A stretch of 64,000 nt of DNA from Chloroflexota bacterium (lineage in GTDB: Bacteria > Chloroflexota > UBA6077 > SHYK01). Within the stretch, counting starts at the first letter, position 1, and each line of letters starts with the position of its first letter. The position numbers and the translations under genes were made by a program. Shown in pieces: positions 44,899 to 62,641 of the stretch. The notes beneath the pieces are model-generated. The model searched no databases and had not been told where the DNA came from. It was given only the letters and a program-made list of their open reading frames with translations. Location of the stretch: positions 310,001-374,000 of the forward strand of contig SHYK01000002.1 of assembly GCA_009692845.1 (NCBI GenBank), given 5' to 3'.

Positions 44899-46233
44899 GT
44901 GGCAAGAATAGCTGTTATTGGAGTGGGCTATGTAGGGCTGGTTACGGCGGCCTGTTTCGCGGACCTCGGGCATGAAGTCACCGGGATCGACATTGACGAA
45001 GGCCGAATTCGTCGTCTGCGGGTGAAGATCTCGCCAATCTATGAGCCAGGCCTGGACGCCCTGATCGGCCGCAATATCGACGCCGAGCGGCTGCATTTCA
45101 CGACCAACTATCGGGAAGGTCTGGAGGGTGCGCAGTTCGCGTTCATCGCGGTGGGAACGCCGAGCGGACCGGCCGGCGAAGCGGACATGACCGCTTGCGA
45201 CGCGGCGGCCAAGGGTATTGCAGATGCCGCCAGGGGTTCAATCATTGTGGTCAACAAGAGCACCATGCCGATCGGAAGCGGGGATCGGTTGGAAGCCATC
45301 ATTCGCCAGTCAGGTACTGAGAGTCTCGACGCGCGGGTGGTCTCCAATCCGGAGTTTCTCCGCGAGGGGACGGCAGTGAGTGACTTCTTCGCGCCCGACC
45401 GGATCGTGCTCGGCTCGACCGATACCGAGGCGGCTAACGCGGTCGCCGAACTGCATCGGCCACTCAATGCACGGATCCTTCTCACGGACATGCGGACCGC
45501 CGAAATGGTGAAGTACGCGTCGAATGCTTTCCTGGCTACCAAGATCTCATTCATCAACGAGATCGCGAGCATCTGTGAGCGGCTCGGAGCGGACGTGAAA
45601 CAGGTTGCGGACGGGATGGGCCTAGACGGACGGATCGGTCGCGGCTTTCTGGAAGCGGGACTTGGCTATGGCGGGTCCTGCTTCCCGAAAGATGTCCGGG
45701 CCCTGGAATTCATGGCTTCGGTGCAGGGTTGCCATCCCCAGCTGTTGCGGGCGGTGATGGAAATCAACCGGGATGTGCGCCGGACGGCGGTGCAAAAGCT
45801 TCGGGAGGTCCTGGGCGGGTTGGATGGAAAGCTCATCGGGGTGCTCGGTCTCTCCTTCAAGCCAAACACTGATGACATCCGAGAGGCGGCAGCGATCGAG
45901 ATCATTCATCTGCTACAGAACGAGGGTGCGCTGATCCGGGCCTATGATCCGGTTGCCATGGAGCATGCGGCGCCCTTCATCCCCAGCGTGGATTTTGCTC
46001 AGAACCCGTATGAGCTGGCCGTGGGGTGTGACGCCTTGGCTTTGGTCACTGAATGGAACGAGTTCAAAGAACTGGACATGGCGCGGATTCGCCAGGCCAT
46101 GCGGACCCCGGTCCTCCTAGACGGCCGCAATATCTACGACCCCCACCGGATGGCCGAGCTCGGCTTCACTTATCTGGGGATGGGCCGGTCTGCTCCCGCG
46201 GCCGACCCGATCGCCCCCGCGCTGGCTCCCTAG
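44899..46233 (+). CDS. UDP-glucose/GDP-mannose 6-dehydrogenase family protein
   Basis: Oxidises a nucleotide sugar to its uronic acid with 2 NAD+, most likely UDP-glucose to UDP-glucuronate. An N-terminal Rossmann motif ([18 protein letters not shown]), [11 protein letters not shown] and the catalytic cysteine in [11 protein letters not shown] (about residue 260) are all present. The C-terminal domain shows [15 protein letters not shown]. The length of 444 residues is normal. The GTG at 44899 has GGGAG 7 bases upstream. As the last glycan gene of the plus arm it would supply the acidic sugar donor. Confidence 0.92.
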
Positions 46234-59927: not shown

Positions 59928-60752
59928 ATGAGTCTCTCGGTCAATTTCAATCCCAGCGCGCTCAGTATTGCGCGCCGGTTTGACACCGATTCCCTGTCCC
60001 TCGCGCGGCGGCTCCAGCGGATCGCGAGCGATCAAGCCCAGCTAGCCGCCGAGAAGCCCGCCTCGGTCGGCATATCCCAGCGGCTCATTGCCCAAATCCG
60101 AGGCACCCTCCAAGCCGAGTCAGATCTCCAGCTCGGGGTTTCAGTCGCCCAATCCGCCGACAGTGCCCTGGGTCAGGTGGCCGACACGCTGCAGCGGATC
60201 CGCCAGCTCGGAGTGCAGGCCAGCAACGCGACGCTCTCGGCGGACGATCAGGCAGCGATCAACACCGAGCTGACCCAGCTCGTCGACGAGATCCAGGACA
60301 CGATCTCGGGGGCGAGCTTCAACGGAAGCAATCCGCTCACCGCCAATCAAGCGATAACCATTCAAGCTGGGCCGGATGCCGGACAGACCCTCACAGTTCC
60401 CGCCCAGGGTCCCGAGGTCCAAGCGGCCGCCAATCAGATCAGTCTCGCGATCGGCAATCTCGCCGCCGATCCCAGCACCGCGACGCAGCTGATTTCGGCC
60501 GCCGACGATGCTCTGGCGACGATCAGCACTGCGCAGTCGACCCTGGGGGCCACCGTCAACCGCTTCGAGAGTGCAATGCGGACCCTAGCCGAAGGGTCGA
60601 TCACCGCCGGTGTCGCCCAATCGGGGCTCAGCCAGGACGTGGCGACGGACGCGGTTGGCGCGGCCCGCCAGTCGATCCTGCAACGGGGACGGATCGCGCT
60701 GCTCGCCCAGGCTAACCTGCAACCCCAATTACTGCTGAAGCTGCTCGGCTGA
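59928..60752 (+). CDS. Flagellin-like protein (minimal, D0/D1 only)
   Basis: A 274-residue flagellin homologue. The N-terminal part shows the D0/D1 pattern: LQRIASDQAQLAAEKPASVGISQRLIAQIRG, SVAQSADSALGQVADTLQRI and RQLGVQASNATLS. The C-terminal part has the conserved QSILQRGRIALLAQANLQPQLLLKLLG, the usual flagellin D0 end. Only a short central region remains, so the variable outer domains are absent. The canonical N-S-A-x-D-D-A-A-G sequence after the first helix is replaced (AAEKPASVG), so it is divergent. No other flagellar gene is nearby. The ATG has a GGGAGATC site a few bases upstream. A sigma-28-like promoter precedes it. Confidence 0.85.
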   Translation: MSLSVNFNPSALSIARRFDTDSLSLARRLQRIASDQAQLAAEKPASVGISQRLIAQIRGTLQAESDLQLGVSVAQSADSALGQVADTLQRIRQLGVQASNATLSADDQAAINTELTQLVDEIQDTISGASFNGSNPLTANQAITIQAGPDAGQTLTVPAQGPEVQAAANQISLAIGNLAADPSTATQLISAADDALATISTAQSTLGATVNRFESAMRTLAEGSITAGVAQSGLSQDVATDAVGAARQSILQRGRIALLAQANLQPQLLLKLLG

Positions 60753-61703: not shown

Positions 61704-61757
61704 AACCAAGAAAAGAGAGGCCTTCCGATACTTCGGGAGGCCTCTCTTTTCTTGGTT
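61704..61757. terminator. Bidirectional terminator between converging genes
   Basis: A near-perfect 20-bp inverted repeat: the left arm runs AACCAAGAAAAGAGAGGCCT and the right arm is its complement, around a short loop. A-rich and T-rich outer arms give a U-rich tract on both strands, so it can end the hydrolase gene (+) and the selenoprotein gene (-). Confidence 0.93.
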
Positions 61758-61773: not shown

Positions 61774-62064
61774 CTAGGCCGGGACCTCGGCGGTGTCCAG
61801 GGCTTCTAGCAGCACCTTGCGGGCCTGACGCATAGCGCCGAGGCCCCTGTACATGTCTCCGTTTCCGGCTTCCATCCGGTCGTAAACTTTCTGGTCGTTC
61901 ACATAGATCTCGAATCGTCCCCCGTGAACCGGAGTCAACTGGATGTTGGTTTCCTTGACTCGGCCCTCGGCCAGTTCAGCCGCCACACTGGCGGCTTGCC
62001 AGAAGTAGCCTCAAGTGACGCAATACTTTATTTCGAGCTTCGCCTTGCCCGCTGATTCATCCAT
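61774..62064 (-). CDS. SelW-like (Rdx family) selenoprotein with UGA-encoded Sec18
   Basis: A 96-residue thioredoxin-like Rdx protein. Normal ORF calling starts at 61986, but the frame continues upstream through a TGA at 62011-62013 to an ATG at 62064, which has GGGGGGAGG 6 bases before it. Reading TGA as selenocysteine gives IKYC-V-T-U-GYFWQAA, the CxxU redox motif of SelW, with Cys15 and Sec18. The rest, GRFEIYVNDQKVYDR, matches the family. A SECIS-like hairpin lies 3' of the TGA. It is 41 bases after the cupin gene. The role is a thiol-redox one, inferred from the family. The TGA could in theory be a nonsense mutation of a Cys codon. Confidence 0.9.
61978..61996 (-). promoter_or_regulatory. 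Candidate bacterial SECIS hairpin
   Basis: AGCCGCCA and TGGCGGCT pair as a perfect 8-bp stem with loop GTG, entirely inside the coding region. The loop begins 23 bases after the TGA with G first, which fits the bacterial SECIS model (loop about 16-37 bases from UGA, G in its first positions). Confidence 0.8.
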
Positions 62065-62104
62065 CCGCTTCCTCCCCCCGGTCGTCTTTCCCATTATCGA
62101 CTAT

Positions 62105-62641
62105 CTACGGTCGGCCTGGCGCCTCACCAGCGGCTTCGGTCGTGCGGGCCCCGAGGGGCTCACTGGCTCCCCGGTCCGTTCTGGGACCCTGCGGGTGCGA
62201 GGAGAGGTCCCAGGTGGGAAGCGGTTTGCGCGAGTTCTCAGCGTTGTAGGGGTACGACTCGCCCAGCGGGCTGATCCGGCGGTGGTTTCCGTCTGGACTG
62301 CTCACCCGGAGCAAGATGAGCTTTTCATCTTGCAGGCTCTCAAACCAGTAGAAGGTATCTCGGGGCATCACCACCGCATCGCCCCGGTTCAGCACCACGA
62401 CCTTTTCCTGCCGGCCTGCGTCCACTCCTAAATGGAAGGCCACCTGGCCATGCAGCACGTAGTAGGTGTGGTCCTGGTTGTCGTGGCGATGCATCCGGCT
62501 CTCGCCCGGTCCCTTGTCATAACGCTTGATCACTCCGGAGAGCCCTTCGGTCCCGGGGAGATTGAGGTCTCCGTTCGCGGCCATGATTGCATCGTCCAGA
62601 AAAGTGAACACCATCGCTTTGGTATCGGTCTCAGCAGCCAT
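62105..62641 (-). CDS. Cupin domain protein
   Basis: A small single-cupin protein of 178 residues. The cupin motif 1 appears as ESRMHRHDNQDHTYYVLHGQ with two His and an acidic residue, and motif 2 as NRGDAVVMPRDTFYWFE. Metal binding by these His is the family norm. The C-terminal 45 residues are Pro/Gly-rich and unlikely to be part of the fold. AAAGGAGG lies just before the ATG. It is followed by the selenoprotein gene 41 bases later, so they may be co-transcribed. Substrate unknown. Confidence 0.87.
   Translation of the reverse strand: MAAETDTKAMVFTFLDDAIMAANGDLNLPGTEGLSGVIKRYDKGPGESRMHRHDNQDHTYYVLHGQVAFHLGVDAGRQEKVVVLNRGDAVVMPRDTFYWFESLQDEKLILLRVSSPDGNHRRISPLGESYPYNAENSRKPLPTWDLSSHPQGPRTDRGASEPLGARTTEAAGEAPGRP

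Follow-up and report, generated by a model that had tools for sequence, protein, structure and literature searches.

A predicted SelW-like selenoprotein gene with an in-frame TGA and a covarying SECIS hairpin in a Chloroflexota genome

The analysed DNA (hereafter the window) is a 64,000-nt stretch of contig SHYK01000002.1 of a Chloroflexota bacterium, the minus strand of which carries a selW-like gene with an internal TGA (Table 1). The original prediction had described a continuous frame leading from an ATG with a strong ribosome site through this TGA to a stop, and all of these elements were present on the minus strand: the start codon occupies 62064–62062 and the TAG stop 61776–61774, while the ribosome-binding site includes GGAGG at 62075–62071 with a spacing of 6 nt to the ATG. 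The read-through product, MDESAGKAKLEIKYCVTUGYFWQAASVAAELAEG...VPA, has 96 residues, and the TGA falls, as had been claimed, at the U of a CxxU motif (U18 within CVTU). The sole entry at this locus in the plain ORF list was a 70-aa ORF starting with GTG (61774–61986), in accordance with the expectation that the usual annotation would give a truncated 70-residue protein. A scan of the window for TGAs combining an open frame, a CxxU or UxxC motif and a G-loop hairpin returned two positions, the selW-like TGA and a candidate at 45755 on the plus strand; the latter was rejected as a second selenoprotein of the window, being not gene-like.

Table 1. Features of the selW-like locus (positions within the window).
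Feature	Position	Strand	Basis
selW-like gene, 96 codons + TAG stop, internal TGA read as Sec (predicted)	61774..62064	-	Rdx PF10262 E 3.5e-12; TIGR02174; AF2 model vs SelW structures
In-frame TGA, Sec18 of CxxU (C15-V-T-U18)	62011..62013	-	sequence; same-codon TGA in orthologues
Ribosome-binding site GGGGGGAGGAAG	62068..62079	-	sequence
SECIS hairpin, 8-bp stem, 3-nt loop GUG	61978..61996	-	covariation in 20 sequences; missing in six TGA-less relatives
Terminator-like inverted repeat of 25 bp, flanked by the convergent selW and dienelactone hydrolase genes	61704..61757	.	terminator role inferred
Cupin-domain gene, 40 nt upstream of selW, same strand	62105..62641	-	Cupin_2 E 3.3e-9

The inverted repeat is 96% complementary with a 4-nt spacer and probably represents a bidirectional terminator. 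It was not among the terminators listed by a consensus terminator scan, and the Rfam matches in its vicinity (mir-26, mir-551 and others) were below gathering scores and arise from the repeat. The cupin-domain gene is possibly co-transcribed with selW. When the order of the genes flanking selW was compared across eight relatives, no clear conserved neighbourhood emerged, except that the closest relative has a divergent gene that appears GH99-like. The window also contains a short flagellin-like gene (59928–60752) coding for 274 aa with Flagellin_N and Flagellin_C domains.

For profile searches, the TGA was entered as a residue with Cys substituted. The product matched Rdx (PF10262) with 46.8 bits against a curated cut-off of 22.6 and the NCBIfam family TIGR02174 (SelT/SelW/SelH) with 39.5 bits against 34.2, consistent with the Rdx-type protein originally proposed. 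In an AlphaFold2 model built from the window protein and related ones, 14 sequences in all (mean pLDDT 76), the CxxU motif was located between a strand (residues 8–15) and a helix (residues 21–31), and the best 22 PDB matches of this model in a structure search (chains, E ≤ 0.001) were all SelW-related, mouse SelW (2npb) included. The best matches in a PDB sequence search were likewise SelW-related proteins, and the suggested alignment with SelW homologues placed Cys at position 18 in both alignments shown (2p0g and 3dex).

The TGA was found at the same codon in a genome of the same family (G002, 83% identity) and in two genomes of another family, f41 (65–66% identity). Of the 15 loci that a DNA pattern including the TGA recovered in genome_contigs, 14 belonged to Chloroflexota MAGs, and each of these 14 encoded, in a SelW-like frame, YCV[TS]UGYFW. 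Single-protein scans run on viral_contigs and genome_contigs gave no match; the probable reason is that the patterns require TGY where the Sec codon stands, or else that close records were omitted. Among 400 sampled genomes of the phylum, 120 had a detectable Rdx relative of the query, which contained TGA in 95 genomes and was present exclusively in TGA-less form in the remaining 25, the TGA at the CxxU position having been read in the fetched loci and the other genomes counted from the search table only. While selA was above the cut-off in 320 of the 400 genomes, its distribution at E < 1e-60 differed between the two groups: 94/95 of the TGA genomes against 18/25 of the TGA-less ones (Fisher P 6e-5, with no correction for kinship), with seven of the latter lacking selA. 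The sole TGA genome without selA (G328, 77% complete) had a clear tRNA-Sec of 73.9 bits; the tRNA-Sec score in the seven selA-less Cys genomes was at most 51 bits, which would be about the level expected for other long-arm tRNAs. The codon changes between the window and G002 comprised 7 synonymous and 3 nonsynonymous ones before the TGA and 17 synonymous and 6 nonsynonymous ones after it, and, judged by this mainly synonymous change, both stretches are evolving as coding sequence. A second potential Sec codon in two relatives (L043 and L049, ...HLGUFRY) was rejected as most likely a natural TGA stop, because L051 and L054 end there.

An 8-bp hairpin with a G-first loop had been predicted to start 23 bases after the TGA. 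The hairpin itself was recovered, with the stem arms AGCCGCCA (61996–61989) and TGGCGGCT (61985–61978) and the loop GTG at 61988–61986, but its distance had to be corrected: it is the loop that starts at 23 bases (22 nt between TGA and loop), the stem starting already at 15 bases from the TGA. The published model of the bacterial SECIS has an apical loop of 3–9 nt located 16–37 nt after the UGA, with G in the first two loop positions (PMC13188914), and the window hairpin fits it with its 22 nt and loop GUG. In the single sequence, the hairpin exceeded chance by no more than a modest margin (z of -1.0 in an 81-nt fold; P about 0.04 for the 8-pair run under synonymous-codon shuffling) and is weak evidence, the strong evidence being comparative. 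In 20 distinct aligned sequences, the hairpin stood at one fixed distance without gaps, the TGA, the following two G and the loop G were invariant, and the eight stem pairs were 86% standard, with 20 cells altered on both sides. The covariation score reached 0.423 versus 0.182 ± 0.025 under shuffling (0/500), with slid partners giving at most 0.134, and the summed stem runs of 143 over 21 sequences exceeded all 4000 synonymous-codon shuffles (maximum 103); since the compared sequences are kin, these shuffle counts overstate independence. The hairpin position in six TGA-less relatives, two of which carry the similar motif YCVPCGY, had runs of 0–3 pairs.

These comparisons bear on the possibility that the TGA is a true stop, the locus being either a pseudogene or a CxxC gene with a sequencing error. 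Such a reading agrees with the neighbouring genes, which end in TGA as an ordinary stop (60752 and 61692), but it is already refuted by the conservation of the TGA: many Chloroflexota assemblies, independent of one another, have it at this codon, which rules out a sequencing error. The synonymous-biased change on either side of the TGA and the covarying hairpin also contradict this reading, leaving it with a negligible probability.

The window's genome (1.88 Mb in 10 contigs, 88.9% complete) was searched for the selenocysteine machinery. The genes selB and tRNA-Sec, on whose absence the original prediction had staked itself, were both found together with selA and selD. The selA gene (556 bits) shares contig C5 with the window, which excludes a binning artefact; selB scored 370 bits against a cut-off of 242; tRNA-Sec scored 69.5 bits, and ARAGORN gave tRNA-SeC with the anticodon tca (TCA). 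In the selD gene (369 bits), the active-site motif CAGU itself contains an in-frame TGA, and a hairpin lies downstream. This selD (L011, G000:C1:31437-32360, minus) is itself a predicted selenoprotein gene; the loop of its 8-bp hairpin starts approximately 15 nt from the TGA and so falls slightly short of the usual 16–37 nt. Furthermore, a peroxiredoxin-like (AhpC-TSA) gene (L089, G000:C10:57227-57583, minus) had an in-frame TGA in the motif UGKC (FRGWYUGKCLVQL). This TGA is followed by a hairpin resembling a bSECIS, TGGTGC-AGTT-GCGCCA, whose loop contains a G and lies 16 nt downstream. The genome is thereby predicted to hold at least three selenoprotein genes: the selW-like gene, selD and L089. 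No TGA was found in the formate dehydrogenase and AhpD-like (CMD) families of this genome, and a SECIS-model search of the genome produced no other strong copy (next best E 0.09).

Reassignment of UGA, or its decoding by read-through as an ordinary amino acid (Trp, Cys or Gly) instead of Sec, is highly improbable: two neighbouring genes stop at TGA, therefore the codon is not reassigned, and the tRNA-Sec(TCA) with selA, selB and selD in the genome and the Cys at this position in TGA-less relatives also oppose it. The 70-residue protein from GTG 61986, downstream of the TGA, is listed by the standard caller but can hardly be the functional product, as it is devoid of the first beta-strand and the CxxU motif, while the upstream stretch ending at the TGA, LEIKYCVTU, is among the most conserved codons.

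We consider the locus, on sequence grounds, to be almost certainly a SelW-like (Rdx family) selenoprotein gene with the TGA read as Sec. The machinery, the family match, the TGA conservation and the covarying hairpin support the predicted ability of this organism to insert selenocysteine; the gene and these features are seen in the sequence, and the insertion itself, the redox activity of the product and its partners are inferred. SelB with Sec-tRNA-Sec(UCA) would bind the hairpin downstream of the UGA and insert selenocysteine. The product would be a thioredoxin-like protein of 96 residues, in which Cys15 and Sec18 could form a reversible selenenylsulfide. The predicted role is most likely that of a small thiol/selenol oxidoreductase.

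A second Rdx paralogue was present in the window's genome (L023, G000:C9:32314-32535, minus), with a CxxC motif (YCAECGY) and without a hairpin at the SECIS position, and similar CxxC copies occurred in the same-family genomes G001, G003 and G004. Two small-genome Chloroflexota without true selA (G202 and G099) had the Cys form YCVPCGY (L039 and L044), which is near the Sec forms YCVPUGY of family f90 and might reflect a possible Sec/Cys switch. In a tree of 29 rows, which was built from a short protein and had long branches flagged, the G002 and f41 Sec forms clustered with the window protein on starred branches. The Cys forms fell into two sets, one including the CxxC paralogue of the window's genome with its family relatives and the other placing G099/G202 beside the f90 Sec forms; because the protein is short and the branches are long, no direction of the Sec/Cys change is claimed. 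It is about an even call whether Chloroflexota are widespread and largely undocumented Sec users, with SelW switching between Sec and Cys and with SECIS hairpin and selA lost in the Cys-form lineages, no direction being implied.

That few Chloroflexota selenoproteins had been described agrees with the literature, a 2006 survey having reported three in Chloroflexi (PMC1794560), while the Sec trait, judging by the genes counted above (selA and TGA-containing SelW relatives), is not rare in the phylum. The literature search found no paper on Chloroflexota SelW, which is not proof of none. Standard annotation would drop or truncate the gene in the window's genome and its relatives, so that the use of selenium in this large phylum, most of it uncultured, would go unseen. 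With the covarying SECIS set of 20 sequences and the Sec-to-Cys contrast, an annotation rule is at hand, as is a case on which SelB recognition can be tested.

The mechanism is ordinary and the SelW-like redox selenoprotein belongs to a type already known; the frequency of SelW-like selenoprotein genes in Chloroflexota is less well documented in the searchable literature. Bacterial SelW-like selenoproteins have long been known (PMC1088965, PMC1794560); in the Sargasso Sea set, no other selenoprotein family had as many members, the SelW-like genes numbering 48 (PMC1088965). The window gene shares with them (PF10262 / TIGR02174) the same domain, the same place of CxxU and a bSECIS directly 3' of the UGA, while its lineage is distinguished by the conserved YCV[TS]UGYFW and approximately 30% identity to solved SelW-related proteins. 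The Cys-containing SelW-related proteins of V. cholerae (2p0g), A. tumefaciens (2fa8) and S. avermitilis (3dex) have, as here, a thioredoxin-like Rdx fold in which strand 1 and helix 1 flank the redox motif, and in 2p0g and 3dex a Cys is aligned where the window gene has its Sec codon. Mouse SelW (NMR structure 2npb) has the same fold (TM-score 0.71 on the query) at 17% identity. Animal SelW also carries CxxU; however, the eukaryotic SECIS is located in the 3' UTR, in contrast to that of the window gene, which lies within the coding region.
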